A model generated the notes under the pieces. That model searched no databases and was not told the DNA's origin. It worked only from the letters and a program-made list of their open reading frames with translations. The translations under genes and the position numbers were made by a program. A stretch of DNA of 32,197 nt, taken from positions 1 to 32,197 of the forward strand of contig DAIDKM010000029.1 in assembly GCA_027450045.1 (NCBI GenBank), in the 5' to 3' direction. Positions 2 through 22,314 of this stretch are shown here, piece after piece (position 1 is the first letter of the stretch; each line of letters opens with the position of its first letter). Source of the DNA: Paludibacter sp. (GTDB lineage Bacteria; Bacteroidota; Bacteroidia; Bacteroidales; Paludibacteraceae).

Positions 2-1480
2 GGAGATTCAAGAGTTGGAGGTCTGGAATATATTCTCAATTCTGGTGGGCAAATAAATTTTGCTATTAAATCAATGAAATGGCCTGGTTTAGCAGCTGTT
101 GAAGTTTCTTTAATAACAATAAATAAGAAAAAAGAAAGAGTAAATTCTATTTTAAATAACGTTAAAGTTGATACAATTAATTCTTATTTGGAAAACTCAG
201 AAATTCTTTTGTCTCCAGAAAAACTGTCTATTTCTTCAAATTTAGGATTTATGGGAAGTAACGTTTTAGGGAGTGGTTTTATTCTTGAGAATGAAATAGC
301 AACTAAAATGATCAATGAAAATCCCAAAAACGACAATGTAATTTTTGATTTCTTGAATGCTGATGATATTAATAACTCTCCATCTCAAAGTCCGAGTAGA
401 AAAATTATAAATTTCTTTGATTGGCCTCTTGAATATTGTGAAGTAGAATATCCTGATTGCATTAAAATAATTCGTAGTAAAGTAAAGCCAGAAAGAGACA
501 AAGTTAATAGAGAAACATATAGAGAAAATTGGTGGCATTATGCCGAAAAAGGAGTCAATCTATATAAAGCTATAAAACCACTTTCAAGATATCTTGTAGT
601 ACCATTTACGACAAAATACTTAACGTTCATCTTTAAATCTGGTGATGTTGTGATTTCTCATGCTGGCGGTGCAATTGCTTTTGAAGATTTTAAATCATTT
701 TCATTCGTAAGCAATACATTTCACGAGCAATGGTCATGGTTAAATAGTTCCACGATGGGAGGAAATACTTTGAGATATACTCCTTCCTCTGCATTAGCAA
801 CATTCCCTTTCCCACAACACCTGACCGCTACCCAAGAGCAAAAACTCGAACAAATCGGTGAAGCCTATCACGAGCATCGTCGACAGTTGATGTTGAAAAT
901 GCAGTTGGGGTTAACCAAGACCTATAATGCGTTTCATGCGCGGGAGATTACAAACCTGACAGGTTTTGAAAACCTGTCAGGTTTAGACAAAAAGACGATA
1001 GAAAAGAAATACGGCAAGGAAGTTTGGAATTTGTGGAATCACCTGCAGAAAACCGAAGGCACCTGTTCACTGGAAGAAGCCGTTGCCGGTATTGTAGAAC
1101 TCCGCCGCCTGCATGTGCTTATGGATGAAGCGGTACTGGAGGCGTACGGCTGGGACCTCCCCCTAACCCCCTCACAAGAAGGGGGAACGAAGAGCGGCAT
1201 CGCACTTCGCCACGATTTCTACGAAGTGGATTATCTGCCAGAAAATGACCGCGTGCGCTACACCATTCACCCCGATGCCCGTAAGGAGATACTGAAACGT
1301 CTGCTGGAACTGAATCACAAAATCCATGCCGAAGAAGTGGAAGCGGGGTTGTGGGAAAAGAAGTCGAAGGGATATAAAGCTGCGGGTAAAAAAGGGGGTG
1401 TGGTGAACGAGGAACAAGCAGAATACGGCGGGTTGTTTGGGTATGGAGGGTTATTTGATAATGTAATAGAGGAGGAGTAA
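2..1480 (+). CDS. Eco57I-like type II (IIG-like) DNA methyltransferase, C-terminal part (5' truncated by window)
   Basis: The frame is open from base 2 to the stop at 1480, so the gene begins outside the window; the first internal ATG is at 74. The segment reading 'INFAIKSMKWPG.AAVEVSL' matches the region after the NPPY catalytic motif in Eco57I-like adenine methyltransferases. It is followed by a target-recognition region (about residues 100-270) and a C-terminal part ending in 'DFYEVDYLPENDRVRYTIHP' and a helical tail. The catalytic motifs and any nuclease domain would lie upstream, so restriction activity cannot be judged. The first roughly 800 bases are much more AT-rich than the rest. 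Two palindromic repeats are inserted in frame (952-984 and 1154-1187). It could instead be the methylase of another defence system. The family is confident, the subtype is not. Confidence 0.85.
   Translation, partial: GDSRVGGLEYILNSGGQINFAIKSMKWPGLAAVEVSLITINKKKERVNSILNNVKVDTINSYLENSEILLSPEKLSISSNLGFMGSNVLGSGFILENEIATKMINENPKNDNVIFDFLNADDINNSPSQSPSRKIINFFDWPLEYCEVEYPDCIKIIRSKVKPERDKVNRETYRENWWHYAEKGVNLYKAIKPLSRYLVVPFTTKYLTFIFKSGDVVISHAGGAIAFEDFKSFSFVSNTFHEQWSWLNSSTMGGNTLRYTPSSALATFPFPQHLTATQEQKLEQIGEAYHEHRRQLMLKMQLGLTKTYNAFHAREITNLTGFENLSGLDKKTIEKKYGKEVWNLWNHLQKTEGTCSLEEAVAGIVELRRLHVLMDEAVLEAYGWDLPLTPSQEGGTKSGIALRHDFYEVDYLPENDRVRYTIHPDARKEILKRLLELNHKIHAEEVEAGLWEKKSKGYKAAGKKGGVVNEEQAEYGGLFGYGGLFDNVIEEE
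952..984. repeat. 33-nt near-perfect palindrome inside the methyltransferase gene
   Basis: Two 16-base arms (left AAACCTGACAGGTTTT at 952-967, right at 969-984) are exact reverse complements around a single G at 968. The element is 11 codons long and keeps the reading frame, encoding about NLTGFENLSGL. I recall similar AACCTGACAGGTT palindromes dispersed in Bacteroidota genomes; that recollection was not checked. Confidence 0.8.
1154..1187. repeat. C-rich/G-rich inverted repeat inserted in frame
   Basis: A run of the form ACCTCCCCCTAACCCCCTC is followed after a short loop by AAGGGGGAA. This resembles a dispersed CCTAACCCCC repeat common in Bacteroidota. It adds about 14 residues (PLTPSQEGGTKSGI) between 'YGWDL' and 'ALRHDFYEVDYLP', which would read smoothly without it. 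The extra DNA is a multiple of three, so the gene stays open. Confidence 0.65.
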
Positions 1481-2695: not shown

Positions 2696-2730
2696 TAGTG
2701 ACAGCTTCACTCGAAGTGAAGCCGTCACTA
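2696..2730. repeat. Strong 35-nt hairpin (16-bp stem, one mismatch)
   Basis: TAGTGACAGCTTCACT (2696-2711) pairs with AGTGAAGCCGTCACTA (2715-2730) with a single A/C mismatch and a CGA loop. No T-tract follows on either strand, so it is more like a REP-type palindrome than a classical terminator. It could still end transcription of the upstream gene or protect its mRNA. Confidence 0.7.
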
Positions 2731-3061: not shown

Positions 3062-3891
3062 AAAATAAGATTCAACTGTTTGAAGAAAAAAAAGTCCGCA
3101 CGGCATGGGACGAAGCAACGGAAGAATGGTATTTTTCGGTGGTGGATGTAGTGGATGTATTAACAGATAGTCCCAATCCGAGAAAATATTGGAGTGTGCT
3201 AAAAACTCGTCTTAAAAAAGAAGGCAGTGAGTTGACTACAAACTGTAGTCAACTGAAAATGGTCTCAGCCGATGGAAAAAAATATCTTACGGATGTGGTT
3301 TCCACCGAGCAGCTTTTCCGGTTGATTCAATCCATACCGTCACCAAAAGCCGAACCATTTAAACTTTGGATTGCTCAGGTAGCTAAAGAACGCTTAGATC
3401 AGATGCAAGATCCGGAATTGTCGATAGAGCAAGCCATGATGGACTACAAACGGTTGGGGTATTCCGACAATTGGATTAATCAACGCCTGAAAAGCATTGA
3501 AATACGCAAAGACCTGACCGATGAATGGAAATCAAGGGGATTGGAAGAAGGGTTGCATTTTGCTACTCTTACTGATATTATATACAAAACCTGGGCAGAC
3601 AAATCGGCCAGGGAATACAGGCAATTTAAAGGGTTGAAAAAAGAAAATTTGCGTGATAATATGACGAATACGGAGCTGGTGTTGAATATGTTGGCAGAGC
3701 TTTCTACTACACGCATATCGGAAACGACGAACCCGGATTCAATGGAAGAACATGAAAAGGTTGCAAAACAAGGCGGTGAAATAGCCCGTAATGCCCGACT
3801 GGAACTTGAAGCAAAAACAGGCGAGAAAGTAATATCACCATTGAATGCAAAAAAAGGAATTTTGAAAAACAACAAAGGTGATATTGACTAA
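3058..3891 (+). CDS. BRO-N family DNA-binding protein (phage antirepressor / DinD-like)
   Basis: 277 residues. Residues 1-105 form a BRO-N domain: 'IQLFEEKKVRTAWDEATEEW', 'YFSVVDVVDVLTDS', 'PRKYW', then 'VVSTEQLFRLIQSIPSPKAE' and 'FKLWIAQVAKERLD'. The C-terminal part (about 120-277) is charged and helical, as in the chromosomal BRO/DinD-type proteins of Bacteroidota. BRO-N proteins bind DNA and occur in phages and defence-rich islands; the exact role of this version is unknown. The start overlaps the stop of the truncated copy (ATGA), so translation may be coupled. It appears full length. Confidence 0.85.
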   Translation: MKNKIQLFEEKKVRTAWDEATEEWYFSVVDVVDVLTDSPNPRKYWSVLKTRLKKEGSELTTNCSQLKMVSADGKKYLTDVVSTEQLFRLIQSIPSPKAEPFKLWIAQVAKERLDQMQDPELSIEQAMMDYKRLGYSDNWINQRLKSIEIRKDLTDEWKSRGLEEGLHFATLTDIIYKTWADKSAREYRQFKGLKKENLRDNMTNTELVLNMLAELSTTRISETTNPDSMEEHEKVAKQGGEIARNARLELEAKTGEKVISPLNAKKGILKNNKGDID

Positions 3892-4821: not shown

Positions 4822-5889
4822 ATGGCAAAACGGATAAACCAACCTGTTGAAGAATTCAATGAAATACTGCTTTACACCACACCCAACGGCAAGGTAAAAG
4901 TAGAAATGTATTTGCATGACGAAACGATTTGGCTCACGCAACAAAAAATAGCCGATCTTTTTGGCGTAGATAGAACTGTTGTAACTAAACATTTAGGGAA
5001 TATATTCAAAACAGGAGAACTAAACGAACAAGTGGTATGTGCAAAATTTGCACATACCACTCCACACGGTGCTATTAAAGGAAAAACGCAGGAGTCGGTA
5101 ACAAAATATTATAACCTTGATGCAATTATTTCGGTTGGATACCGTGTAAATAGCACCCAGGCAACAGCATTTCGTATATGGGCTACCGAACGGTTGAAAG
5201 AATATATTATAAAGGGTTTTACCATGGATGATGAGCGGCTAAAAAACCCAAACAACATTTTCGGTAAAGATTATTTTGAAGAACAACTTGCCCGAATCCG
5301 CGACATACGCAGCAGTGAAAGAAGGTTTTATCAAAAAATAACCGACATTTACACCCAATGCAGTGCCGACTATAATATGGAAACGCAAACCACAAAAGAT
5401 TTTTTTGCAACCATACAAAATAAACTTCACTGGGCAATAACCGGACAGACAGCTGCCGAGTTAATTGCTTCGAGAGTGGATAGCGAAAAAGAACACATGG
5501 GTTTAACTACCTGGAAAAATGCACCAAAAGGAAGTATTCGGAAAACAGATGTGGGTATTGCCAAAAATTACCTGAACGAAAACGAATTAAACGGTTTGAA
5601 CCGTATAGTAACCATGTATCTGGATTATGCTGAAAATCAAGCAATGAAAGGTGTAGTTATGTATATGAGAGATTGGATAACAAAATTAGATGCATTCCTT
5701 CAGTTTAACGAAGAAGCCATTTTGAATCACCAAGGTAAAGTATCTCATGAAATTGCATTAGCACTTGCCGAAAGTGAATATGAAAAGTACCGTATTGTTC
5801 AGGATAAATTGCTTGAAAGCGATTTCGATAAAGCAATCAAAGAATTGTCCGCACCAGAAACTAAAATAAACCAAAACAAAAAGCAATAA
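4822..5889 (+). CDS. RhuM family protein
   Basis: 355 residues, the full length expected for the family. The N-terminal part (about 15-60) is a helix-turn-helix-like region ('IWLTQQKIADLFGVDRTVVT'). It is followed by the RhuM core: 'VCAKFAHTTPHGAIKGKTQ', 'YYNLDAIISVGYRVNS', 'FRIWATERLKEYIIKGFTMD' and 'LTTWKNAPKGSIRKTDVGIA'. The C-terminus is helical and ends in a basic tail. RhuM-like genes are named after a Salmonella pathogenicity-island gene and are often found on mobile or defence islands; the biochemical activity is not established. The gene sits between 41-bp direct repeats that split an older operon. It carries a perfect 31-nt palindrome in codons 70-80. Confidence 0.92.
   Translation: MAKRINQPVEEFNEILLYTTPNGKVKVEMYLHDETIWLTQQKIADLFGVDRTVVTKHLGNIFKTGELNEQVVCAKFAHTTPHGAIKGKTQESVTKYYNLDAIISVGYRVNSTQATAFRIWATERLKEYIIKGFTMDDERLKNPNNIFGKDYFEEQLARIRDIRSSERRFYQKITDIYTQCSADYNMETQTTKDFFATIQNKLHWAITGQTAAELIASRVDSEKEHMGLTTWKNAPKGSIRKTDVGIAKNYLNENELNGLNRIVTMYLDYAENQAMKGVVMYMRDWITKLDAFLQFNEEAILNHQGKVSHEIALALAESEYEKYRIVQDKLLESDFDKAIKELSAPETKINQNKKQ
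5031..5061. repeat. Perfect 31-nt palindrome inside the RhuM gene
   Basis: AGTGGTATGTGCAAA (5031-5045) and TTTGCACATACCACT (5047-5061) are exact reverse complements around one A. The segment encodes QVVCAKFAHTT, a part of RhuM I believe is conserved, so it is not an obvious recent insertion. Confidence 0.9.
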
Positions 5890-7995: not shown

Positions 7996-10119
7996 ATGGA
8001 AAAATCAGTCACATTGAATGTATTACATTTTGAACATCCGGCAAAAGAGTTAACGTTCGACTTCACCACGCAAGAGATAGAAGGTGCTTATAAAGTCAAA
8101 GAGAAGGATTGCTCGTTTTTAGTTGCTAAATTGAAATTGCCGAAAACAACCAAAGCACTTTACACAACTTTTCATCATCAAACGAACAATGGATTTACGG
8201 TAACTCAAAAGACATGTTGCAAGGAAAATGAACTCAAAGAAGCCTGTTGGTCGTATTCTATACTCAAAACCTATTATACGCAGGCAATTTATGCGTACTT
8301 CGGTAAACAATTTCCGGTCAGTTATACTTTTGTAGGAGATGTTGAAGTATGGATACCTGAGCAATCGGGTTATTCAACTTGCCATGGTTACCATGTGTTT
8401 GGTTTGCGGGTACAATTTGCGCGTATCACGAACCAACCCGAATTGATTGTTTATTCGGGTGATGCCCGATCCGTTTTCAAAGAATCGCTGACATCGGCAA
8501 CCTTCCATGAGATGTTGCCGGAAGTGTTTACCCGGGTGATGTTCGAGAACCGGTTCTACCGGTATGATGATATGCCCGATAAGGTACGTCGACATCTTGA
8601 TCACGTCTATCCATGTATAAATAAGAGATTAAAAAAAGCGCTTGGGATGCAGCATATTGCCCCTGATCAAAGCAATAAGTACATTCGCTATTTCGATGAA
8701 ATAGAGGCTTTCAAAAATAATTTTCTGCTTACTCCGCCCTTTCGCTCCCTATTGCCTTTAGAACACGATTGGGTGAACATGCCTTCCTTCCAATTTGCCG
8801 ATAATGGAACCGATCAAGCCGGATTGATCTTTGGGGGAGATACCACACATGAAGATTCCTATACAGGCATAAAAGAGTTTGGCCCGAAAGAATTGATTCC
8901 TAAACAAGATAAAGATGTTGTCTTCTTTTTTATTTGTCATGAAAATGATACGCAAATGGCGTTGACTGTCAATGATTTTATGCTTGGCGAGAAAAGAGGA
9001 TTTAGAGGTCTTGCTAATTTTGCAAAGATAAGGTATGTGACTCAGAAAGGGTTGAGTATTTATTTTAAGAATAAAGAGAACCCTTTGCCTGAAATAATAA
9101 CCCAACTGAATGATGGACGGTTTGATGGAGGCACCCGTTATGTAGCGCTATATCTGTCGCCTTACAGCAAATGGAGTGAGCAAGAAGAGGATCGTGCCAT
9201 TTATTATCGGGTGAAAGAGGAACTCCTGCATCGAGGCATTGTATCGCAAGCGCTGGAAGTGGAAAAAACGTGGGGAACGAATCGCGTACTTGACCAGAAA
9301 AGCAAGAAAGCCATTTTGGATGATAATTTCAAATTCAGCTTACCCAATATCGCCATCGCGTTGCTTGCCAAATTAGGCGGCACACCGTGGAGCTTACCAC
9401 AAGCCTCTTTTCACGAGTTGGTGATTGGGATCAGTGCATTTAAAAATCTTAAAATAGGCAAGAAATACCTTGGCAGCGCATTCAGTTTCTCAAACGAAGG
9501 GAAATTTTATGGATTTGATGTGTTTCGCAGCGATCAAATCAATGAATTAGCAGGATCAATCCTATTGGCAGTGAGACGGTATTGCGAAGAACATCATGAA
9601 ATGAAGCGTTTAGTGATTCATTTTTACAAAACGCTAAGTTGGCGAGAATTAGCTCCAATTGAAAAAGGATTGGCGGAATTGGGATTGAATGTGCCGGTGG
9701 TTGTGGTGTCGATGAATAAGGCCTTTTCGGAGGATATAGTGGGGTTTGATCTGAGTTACGCTCACAAAATGCCCGATTCAGGCACCTATCTGGCAATTGG
9801 CAGAAATGAATTTTTGCTGTATAACAACGGGTTTGCAGGAGGGGTGAAACGTAAAGGAAAAATGGTTTATCCTTTTCCGTTGAAACTCTCCATACAGCAA
9901 TATGAATCGTTATCGAAAGCAAACGAGTCAATTCTTGAGACAACCGCGGAAGAGTTGTTACAGCAAGTTTCCCGTTTCAGTTGTTTGTATTGGAAATCGG
10001 TGTCACACCAACCTCTCCCTGTGACCTTGAAATACCCGGAAATGTTGGCGCAAATCGTACCGCATTTTACCCGCCCTGAACTGCCTCAAACAGGCAAAAA
10101 GACTTTGTGGTTTCTGTAA
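7996..10119 (+). CDS. Prokaryotic Argonaute (long pAgo, MID-PIWI, probably catalytically inactive)
   Basis: 707 residues, the size of a long pAgo (N, PAZ-like, MID, PIWI). The MID domain (about 375-465) shows the guide 5'-phosphate pocket: Y403 and K407 in 'AIYYRVKEELL', Q418 in 'GIVSQAL', K459 in 'ALLAKLGG'. The PIWI domain (about 470-690) aligns by eye through 'LVIGISAFK', 'GSAFSFSNEGKFYGF', 'LVIHFYKTLS', 'SGTYLAIGRNEFLLYNNG' and 'LPVTLKYPEMLAQIV'. Catalytic positions appear changed: the first Asp is S480, the third tetrad position is Y544, and the final Asp/His is E682. The glutamate finger could not be placed. The protein should therefore bind guide and target but not slice. No effector gene is joined to it. 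The N-terminal 370 residues were not assigned to N and PAZ domains with certainty. Confidence 0.9.
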   Translation: MEKSVTLNVLHFEHPAKELTFDFTTQEIEGAYKVKEKDCSFLVAKLKLPKTTKALYTTFHHQTNNGFTVTQKTCCKENELKEACWSYSILKTYYTQAIYAYFGKQFPVSYTFVGDVEVWIPEQSGYSTCHGYHVFGLRVQFARITNQPELIVYSGDARSVFKESLTSATFHEMLPEVFTRVMFENRFYRYDDMPDKVRRHLDHVYPCINKRLKKALGMQHIAPDQSNKYIRYFDEIEAFKNNFLLTPPFRSLLPLEHDWVNMPSFQFADNGTDQAGLIFGGDTTHEDSYTGIKEFGPKELIPKQDKDVVFFFICHENDTQMALTVNDFMLGEKRGFRGLANFAKIRYVTQKGLSIYFKNKENPLPEIITQLNDGRFDGGTRYVALYLSPYSKWSEQEEDRAIYYRVKEELLHRGIVSQALEVEKTWGTNRVLDQKSKKAILDDNFKFSLPNIAIALLAKLGGTPWSLPQASFHELVIGISAFKNLKIGKKYLGSAFSFSNEGKFYGFDVFRSDQINELAGSILLAVRRYCEEHHEMKRLVIHFYKTLSWRELAPIEKGLAELGLNVPVVVVSMNKAFSEDIVGFDLSYAHKMPDSGTYLAIGRNEFLLYNNGFAGGVKRKGKMVYPFPLKLSIQQYESLSKANESILETTAEELLQQVSRFSCLYWKSVSHQPLPVTLKYPEMLAQIVPHFTRPELPQTGKKTLWFL

Positions 10120-20904: not shown

Positions 20905-20940
20905 AAAAGGTTTGTGAGTAATTTTACTTACAAACCTTTT
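20905..20940 (+). terminator. Hairpin terminator after the M23 gene
   Basis: AAAAGGTTTGTGAGTAA pairs with TTACTTACAAACCTTTT across a minimal loop, with one G-T wobble. The 17-base arm and its position between genes argue against starting dgt inside it (ATG at 20914). Confidence 0.7.
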
Positions 20941-20970
20941 CTGTTTCTTCTCTATTTAAATAAAGTCTTT

Positions 20971-22314
20971 ATGCCAAATGAAAGTATGCAATGGGATATG
21001 CTGCTTACCAACAAACGGTTGGGTATGGAGCATTATCATGAACAACGCGCTGACGATCGTACGGAATTTCAACGCGATTACGATCGGCTCATCTTTTCAG
21101 CACCTTTTCGTAGGTTACAAAATAAAACACAGGTATTTCCTTTACCAGGAAGCGTATTCGTTCACAATAGACTGACACATAGCTTGGAAGTTGCCAGCGT
21201 GGGGCGCTCTTTAGGGAGTGTGGTAAGCAAACTTTTGAAAGAAAAACACCCCGATTGTCCTCCCTTTATGGATGAGATTGGAGCCATAATCTCAGCAGCA
21301 TGTTTGGCGCATGATTTAGGCAATCCTCCGTTTGGTCATTCGGGCGAACAAGCCATTGACACTTTTTTCTCCGAAGGACTCGGGCAAGTGATTAAAGAAA
21401 GGTTAGAAGAAACTTCCTACTGGACAGATTTTACTCATTTTGAAGGGAATGCCAATGCTTTTCGATTGCTGACTCACCGGTTCAATGGTCGTCGGGATGG
21501 CGGATTTGCCATGACGTATGCCACATTGGCAACCTTGGTAAAGTATCCGTATCTCTCTAATCATGCGGATTTCAATAAGTCCAAATTTGGCTTTTTCCAT
21601 GCTGATGAATCGATATATCTCCGTATTGCCAAAGAGTTAGGTATTCTCCAACATCCACAACACCCGCATCGTTTTGTCCGTTATCCTCTTACTTATCTAT
21701 TAGAAGCAGCTGATGATATCTGCTATCAGGTGATGGATATGGAAGATGCACAAAAACTAAAAATCATTTCTGCTGACGAAACCAAACGTTTATTGCAACT
21801 TTTCTTTCAACCGAAACGATTAACGAGAATCGCTGAAACGATGCAGATGGTAACGGATGTAAACGAACAGATTGCCTACCTGCGCTCATCTGTGATTGGT
21901 GTGTTGGTGGATGCGGTGGCACATGTATTTGTATCGCATGAAGAAGAAATTTTATCGGGTACTTTTCAAGGTTCTTTGATCGACAAATTGCCGGATTCTT
22001 TGAGGTTGGCCTATCGAGAATGCGCCATCATGGCTAAAAAGAAAATATATTGCGCTTCGGAAGTGTTGGATGTTGAATTGGCTGGCCATAAAATTATTAC
22101 GACATTATTGCAAGAGCTGACAAATGCCGTTCTATATCCCGAAAAAGCCTACTCGCGTCAATTATTGCTACGTATCCCGACACAGTACGAATTAGACAGC
22201 ACAACGCTTTATGGAAAGATGTTGGGTATGCTCGACTTTGTATCGGGTATGACTGATGTTTATGCGCTGGATTTGTACCGTAAAATAACCGGCATGGGCC
22301 TGCCAACGCTATAA
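20971..22314 (+). CDS. dgt: Deoxyguanosinetriphosphate triphosphohydrolase (dGTPase)
   Basis: 447 residues from the chosen ATG at 20971; an in-frame ATG at 20914 lies within the preceding terminator hairpin and was rejected, and 20986 is another option. HD-domain motifs are 'LTHSLEVASVGRSLG' and 'AHDLGNPPFGHSGEQ', with 'LIFSAPFRRLQNKTQVFPLP' near the start and 'YLLEAADDICYQVMDMEDA' later. It hydrolyses dGTP to deoxyguanosine and triphosphate. Some bacterial dGTPases also restrict phage by draining dNTPs, but this one is in a housekeeping setting. Confidence 0.95.
   Translation: MPNESMQWDMLLTNKRLGMEHYHEQRADDRTEFQRDYDRLIFSAPFRRLQNKTQVFPLPGSVFVHNRLTHSLEVASVGRSLGSVVSKLLKEKHPDCPPFMDEIGAIISAACLAHDLGNPPFGHSGEQAIDTFFSEGLGQVIKERLEETSYWTDFTHFEGNANAFRLLTHRFNGRRDGGFAMTYATLATLVKYPYLSNHADFNKSKFGFFHADESIYLRIAKELGILQHPQHPHRFVRYPLTYLLEAADDICYQVMDMEDAQKLKIISADETKRLLQLFFQPKRLTRIAETMQMVTDVNEQIAYLRSSVIGVLVDAVAHVFVSHEEEILSGTFQGSLIDKLPDSLRLAYRECAIMAKKKIYCASEVLDVELAGHKIITTLLQELTNAVLYPEKAYSRQLLLRIPTQYELDSTTLYGKMLGMLDFVSGMTDVYALDLYRKITGMGLPTL

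Follow-up and report, generated by a model that had tools for sequence, protein, structure and literature searches.

REPs flank tnpAREP genes, as set out in the sections of Quentin et al. (2018, PMC6006769) on these systems, and genes of subclass 2.4 carry in-frame REP insertions, which are there called unique to 2.4. Subclass 2.6 of the Bacteroidetes is described in the same sections with atypical, weaker structures without GT[AG]G, which occur beside the gene as well as elsewhere in the genome, and for genes of subclass 2.1 these sections report that no REP-like sequences were found beside them. REPs inside genes are likewise known, and palindromes in frame in many genes, often of DNA metabolism, are covered in the relevant parts of PMC3733652 and PMC10969869. 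Rickettsia palindromic elements (RPEs) also lie in frame inside genes and have about 150 bp (PMC10969869, part on RPEs). The placement of REPs is described as biased towards gene ends (PMC3733652, part on placement), and the repeat consensus sequences of Thiomargarita are characterized in a passage of PMC4853749 as "typically palindromic". Searches of open PMC papers brought up none that was recognized as describing the element or the transposase clade treated below. In-frame REPs as such are already known from the cited sections of PMC6006769; treated here is a REP-like element, probably of a RAYT-like group without tags, that lies in frame in the linker of a methyltransferase.

The window, i.e., the whole stretch of 32,197 nucleotides from Paludibacter sp. 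that was analyzed, begins within an open frame that holds a perfect palindrome of 33 nt, AAACCTGACAGGTTTTGAAAACCTGTCAGGTTT. Its two arms of 16 nt each (952-967 and 969-984, 100% complementary) are separated by 1 nt, a G, and each arm features a 15-nt palindrome of its own (AAACCTG-A-CAGGTTT and AAACCTG-T-CAGGTTT). The sequence-only reading had reported a 33-nt palindrome with 16-base arms and a single central G that is in frame within a methyltransferase gene, and every point of this was borne out. The observation is real and far beyond chance, with an expectation of about 1e-5 for 16-nt arms with a 1-nt loop in the window and a longest arm of 13 nt in 100 first-order simulations of the window. 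Read from the sequence, the palindrome begins at codon position 3, and the frame 2-1480 passes through it as [T]NLTGFENLSG[L], in the context ..FHAREI-T-NLTGFENLSG-LDKK... As RNA, it gives a hairpin of 15 pairs with a z-score of -5.15, and the tetranucleotide GT[AG]G is absent beside it. By tblastn, the frame is of the PglX / MmeI type IIL methyltransferase kind and is matched by 108 plasmid records, the best listed one being 39.1% identical across 90% of the query. Pfam and NCBIfam searches of the frame and a PDB search with its protein gave no match, and a search for viral relatives of the methyltransferase found none. The features are compiled in Table 1.

Table 1. Positions of the palindromes, the host gene and the in-frame copies in other genes (window coordinates, or locus and genome).
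Feature	Position or locus	Strand	Remarks
REP-like 33-nt palindrome	952..984	.	in-frame reading on + strand: TNLTGFENLSGL
C-terminal part of PglX/MmeI-type DNA methyltransferase	2..1480	+	492 aa, open at contig start
Second, imperfect 33-nt palindrome, AGTGACAGCTTCACTCGAAGTGAAGCCGTCACT	2697..2729	.	same architecture; between genes; 14 of 15 first positions pair
In-frame copies, hsdR	L264 of G490, L265 of G464		two copies each; TIGR00348 for L264, HSDR_N for both
In-frame copy, cas3	L290 of G401 (same genus)		TIGR01587
In-frame copy, type ISP gene	L284, own genome		PF18135
In-frame copies, WD40-caspase protein	L238 of G470		two different 33-mers; domain-supported
In-frame copy, histidine kinase-like protein	L195 of G480		domain-supported
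In-frame copy, 856-aa frame	L042, Anaerolineae bin		without domain support

The palindrome belongs to a dispersed family. A covariance model built from 27 family members, with the 31-nt palindrome of L212 left out of the alignment, matches it at E 1.5e-11. The genome-wide count of copies proposed by the sequence-only reading yielded four places in the own genome that match the model at E < 1e-5; the exact pattern occurs there once, together with one copy at two mismatches. Two of the four lie within restriction-modification genes, namely the 952-984 copy and a 34-nt variant (C30:12066) in a type ISP restriction-modification protein (PF18135, E 4.1e-114), one is located between convergent frames (C40:19520) and one within a 78-aa open frame that is taken as spurious (C4:92994). 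At E <= 0.01, the model further has matches in 38 of 101 relatives (in all counts for relatives, no more than 70 candidates were scored per genome, and matches on either strand were counted), and the strict pattern was found in 9 of 395 phylum-sample genomes, the own genome included. When one genome per species was scanned, the 33-mer pattern turned up in at least 120 stretches; among the 120 matches listed, 88 are Beggiatoaceae or other Thiotrichaceae by title, and the remaining ones are Flavobacterium and other Bacteroidota, Balneola, Chloroflexi and a Methylococcaceae bin. Plasmid and phage collections searched with the 33-mer gave no match, and viral contigs searched with its pattern gave one stretch. 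Short palindromes at many, mainly intergenic places, the hallmark of REPs, are seen in relatives and other phyla, the own genome holding only its four. Within one order the subtypes are genome-specific, e.g., GACCTG..CAGGTC in G480 and CCTAACAGG..CCTGTTAGG in G452.

The copies vary in a manner that preserves the stem. Among 61 copies scored in L192-L243, which had been found by a pattern search blind to pairing, 3 are unchanged, 3 have one change and 55 have two, and both changed positions stay paired in 51 of these 55; as the copies share ancestry, 51 is not a number of events. The paired changes are of six kinds, and the four unpaired copies are of four kinds, one each. A reading as two half-hairpins was tried as well and rejected: it also beats shuffles, yet in the model alignment, which is partly selected for palindromy, it pairs 94.2% of cells compared to 98.7% for the long stem. 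Another 33-nt family (AGACATTCCATATCTT..) was encountered in short open frames of G424 (L303:1032-1064 and L304:2129-2161), resembling the palindromes around transposase L315 of G423. Furthermore, L120 features at ~6650 a 15-nt half element where the related Parabeggiatoa loci L038 and L073 hold the full 33-mer, a possible case of decay by deletion.

In two element-rich loci (L248, L265), an in-frame copy directly follows the NHFH motif of a small gene. Pfam gave no match for this gene, and NF047646, REP-associated tyrosine transposase, is matched at E 1.9e-15 and 3.7e-15, with 57 and 56.1 bits compared to the 80 of the NCBIfam REP_Tyr_transpos cut-off. A profile (A3) made from an alignment of nine relatives matches the E. 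coli TnpA-REP structure 4er8 at E 6.9e-7. NHFH is present in 14 clade-type proteins and YIHxNP in most, which corresponds to the HUH and Y---NP motifs of class 2 TnpA-Y1; F[EQ] stands at the aligned place of the conserved W-Q, which subclasses 2.2, 2.4, 2.5 and 2.7 feature, which accompanies the recognition of GT[AG]G and which is lacking here. By protein query, a homologue was detected in 11 of 43 chosen genomes (15 loci), divided into 10 of 23 genomes picked as element carriers vs. 1 of 20 picked as poor. The A3 profile gave a match at E <= 1e-10 in 20 of 32 chosen genomes, with a best match below 1e-50 in 10 of those. The tree of 35 proteins places sequences with a common subtype in close pairs (L326/L329, L328/L330, L331/L333 and L319/L348), and sequences of Chloroflexi and Beggiatoaceae group with a support of 0.97, which suggests transfer between phyla. 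Genes of Pfam PF01797 (Y1_Tnp) were considered as partners, too, and discarded, as none of 24 loci in 8 genomes was beside an element; given that the clade (L248, L265) has no Pfam match, this test looked at the wrong genes. GTAG-type palindromes are located near two of these loci (L164, L172).

The association of palindromes with this clade was assessed at 24 clade loci and 42 loci of other Y1 genes within a range of 150 nt, leaving out the truncated or fragmentary L322, L339 and L344. A palindrome within 150 nt of the gene was found at 20 of 24 clade loci vs. 3 of 42 others, and palindromes on both sides at 11 of 24 vs. 0 of 42. Without L311, L313 and L317, to which the element had led as well (L265, L248 and L268), 17 of 21 loci still have a palindrome to one or both sides, 9 of them to both. 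Since several of the searched genomes were chosen for holding the element, the contrast within the clade loci is the safer figure, i.e., a density of 4.64 palindromes per kb near the gene vs. 0.25 further out. Four clade loci (L316, L318, L323, L334) lack a palindrome within 150 nt of the gene, and the controls L320, L321 and L325 do have palindromes nearby at looser limits. The core of the window's own palindrome (AAACCTGACAGG or AGACCTGACAGG) stands on both sides of the gene in Flavobacteria BAL38 (L328), F. filum (L330), Parabeggiatoa (L331), Marithrix (L333) and an Anaerolineae bin (L327), and in F. odoriferum (L339) a distance of 37 nt separates an exact element from the open frame of a 5' gene fragment. 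By visual inspection, 8 of the 24 loci (L311-L315, L318, L327, L331) carry a full or half copy in frame behind the HUH motif. At the level of genomes, at least 20 model matches occur in 7 of 9 relatives with a clade member at E <= 1e-60 vs. 6 of 92 others (Fisher p 3e-6 for the 101 relatives, uncorrected for relatedness and with several of these genes included in A3). The own genome, searched by protein query and profile, holds no clade member at E <= 1e-10, and the element-rich G411, G424, G480 and G490, several of which are drafts, gave no profile match at this threshold. G832 shows a weak profile match only, with a stop, and among the phylum-sample carriers G096, G170, G174, G194, G222, G257, G273 and G306 a strong match was found only in G174 and G194. 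Copies flanking a RAYT/TnpA-REP gene, the second hallmark of REPs, are a property of the relatives and not of the own genome. As a separate observation, four element copies, all open in one frame, precede the Parabeggiatoa transposase frame (L331:2105-2282).

The 952-984 palindrome is probably a copy of a REP-like mobile element that belongs to a RAYT-like HUH transposase clade and lacks the GT[AG]G foot. Its earlier description as a mobile mini-palindrome is supported by the dispersed family, the tight linkage to the transposase gene and the in-frame copies in unrelated genes. Judging from linkage and not from activity, the clade transposase would recognize the single-stranded hairpin and spread the 33-mer. 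The methyltransferase copy may have arisen by this spread, or it may, because no clade member was found in the own genome, have arrived with the methyltransferase by horizontal transfer; the window copy is either an orphan or came with its host gene. Three properties could have made it tolerable: the number of added bases is divisible by three, one of the frames on this strand is free of stops, and the surrounding linker varies in length.

Like REPtrons (REP and RAYT/TnpA-REP), the system consists of dispersed palindromes flanking a Y1 HUH gene. According to the sections of PMC6006769 on subclass 2.4, its REPs carry GT[AG]G, also as a double foot, and its proteins WQ, whereas here the clade proteins feature F[EQ] and the foot lacks GT[AG]G in 17 of 17 flanking copies checked (in 2 of these the tetranucleotide falls within 8 nt by chance, in none at the foot). 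With subclass 2.6, as portrayed there, the clade shares the Bacteroidota and tag-less repeats beside the gene and elsewhere, but that subclass is described with weaker structures, NH[LIV]H and WQ, in contrast to the strong perfect stems, NHFH and F[EQ] found here. The nearest motifs in the table of PMC6006769 are NH[YF]H, FQ and Y[IV]HLNP of subclass 2.1.2 / RAYT group 1, although subclass 2.1 is reported there without REPs beside the gene and the clade here has palindromes. By motifs and descriptions, the clade would be nearest to 2.1.2 in motif and to 2.6 in phylum and tag-less repeats. In-gene REPs and RPEs feature GTAG or CGTC tags or have about 150 bp in the passages on them in PMC3733652 and PMC10969869, while the elements here are tag-less and mostly of 33 nt; at this length they differ from the in-frame, ~150-bp Rickettsia elements with their conserved peptide. 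Quite possibly, an undescribed RAYT-REP group is at hand, with tag-less, symmetric hairpins of nearly fixed 33 nt that change with their own transposase, cross phyla with it and enter as in-frame 11-codon cassettes into mobile defence genes (hsdR, cas3, type ISP, MmeI-like) and into the post-HUH loop of the transposase, where a copy may set the expression or activity of the enzyme. Anonymous in-gene palindromes of Bacteroidota and other phyla are now tied to a concrete transposase clade. This offers a tag-less case for the question of how single-strand transposases, the known ones of which read GT[AG]G, find their hairpins, as well as a route for 11-residue peptides into proteins such as restriction and CRISPR enzymes.

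A simple ORF caller placed 263 copies, some of them counted twice (at least L007/L131 and L011/L048). Inside an ORF are 22 of the 263, several of these frames being short or high in GC and perhaps spurious, and in other phyla the same 33-mer lies mostly between genes. Divergent gene pairs hold 2 of 78 placed intergenic copies outside Beggiatoales and 19 of 118 intergenic copies in Beggiatoales, both raw counts without an orientation null. The family might be seen as a terminator or mRNA-stability hairpin that is kept and spread for a function at gene ends, with the methyltransferase copy a stray and the transposase link incidental. The avoidance of divergent pairs outside Beggiatoales, a raw count as stated, as well as the strong RNA hairpin and the paired changes are in line with this, yet the divergent share in Beggiatoales is not, and both the tight flanking of one transposase clade across several phyla and the in-frame copies in hsdR, cas3 and others are left unexplained. 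At 952-984 itself, TTTAGAC follows directly 3' inside the open frame, and the hairpin with a T run at a gene end that marks an intrinsic terminator is not found. REPs, too, are reported to favour 3' ends of genes (PMC3733652, part on placement), so that the two readings are compatible; on its own, a terminator origin is improbable.

Still less probable is an origin by mutation alone, in which template switching in a hairpin-prone linker perfected an imperfect palindrome without transposition. Template switching can turn an imperfect palindrome into a perfect one, and the paired changes as well as two neighbouring BRO-N-type paralogues in the window, which feature different palindromes at matching codons (2946-2964 and 3230-3254; SELSEKIGQLKM and SELTTNCSQLKM), would agree with such a process; near-identical 33-mers at unrelated places in several phyla, however, need spread. 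Template switching may act on copies after insertion.

The hsdR proteins of L264 and L265 are 89% identical over 164 aligned columns with the element excluded, and one hsdR site carries a copy in L265 only. There the two differ by a net 30 nt, not 33, with local divergence; this would support gain or loss, without fixing the ends of the element. Structurally characterized proteins lacking the peptide are hardly shorter at the respective place, a Cas3 by ~4 residues and a LlaGI by ~3 instead of 11, and a joined-flank search among the collected loci gave no clean empty site. The cas3 copy of G401 lies within ~6 kb of the transposase gene, and homologues of the WD40-caspase protein occur in 2 of 149 genomes, that of the query included. 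The sequence-only reading had attributed the survival of the element in genes to a length divisible by three. Such a length does let some insertions pass, but 33 nt is usual for intergenic copies also, and the length is therefore not a product of life inside genes. Nor are the copies unusually free of stops: 226 distinct 33-mers have 3.45 of 6 frames open and randomly drawn 33-mers of these loci 3.63, i.e., no enrichment of open frames.

Homologues of the methyltransferase were found in 2 of 101 relatives and 4 of 395 class-sample genomes (the own genome counted in both), and these are too distant to provide an empty site. The comparison with homologues that had been suggested comprised ten sequences, four from genomes and six of the 108 plasmid records, and the peptide NLTGFENLSG is missing in all ten. 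That the palindrome was "inserted" is nevertheless not directly visible; the linker differs in length among the homologues, the nearest one (L181, 53% identical) being only ~5 residues shorter there, so that the place of the element is a linker of varying length and none of the ten shows a clean gap of 33 nt. A peptide ancestral to the methyltransferase with a DNA sequence palindromic by chance, for which the linker of variable length and the small difference to L181 could speak, is already contradicted by the ten homologues, the chance expectation and identical 33-mers elsewhere, and hardly deserves credit. The combination named beforehand as speaking against a mobile element, a single occurrence and the same peptide in all homologues, fails on both halves, given the four family members of the own genome and the lack of the peptide in ten of ten. 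A second repeat-coded stretch of the methyltransferase, the in-frame repeat CCCCCTAACCCCCTC..GAAGGGGG at 1156-1187 (LPLTPSQEGG), is likewise absent from all ten aligned homologues, L182 and L188 carrying other stretches there.

The second palindrome of the window (Table 1) resembles copies upstream of the transposase L371 in a genome of the same family as well as L284:1939-1971 of the own genome. L371 belongs to the weaker profile matches, a second clade in several members of which other palindromes stand next to the gene and recur within it, behind the HUH motif (e.g., L369, L371, L372 and L375); the second-clade matches L368 and L373 have no such palindromes. A perfect 31-nt palindrome is located in the RhuM gene at 5031-5061. 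The sequence-only reading had likened it to the 952-984 palindrome, which is justified in shape and not in sequence: the RhuM palindrome was found in no other collected locus and had no exact match in viral contigs. The 707-aa protein encoded at 7996-10119 weakly matches the argonaute model NF052569 (E 5e-7, far below the cut-off). Lastly, a near-perfect palindrome with 17-nt arms (94%) occupies 20905-20940, at the start of the ORF 20914-22314.
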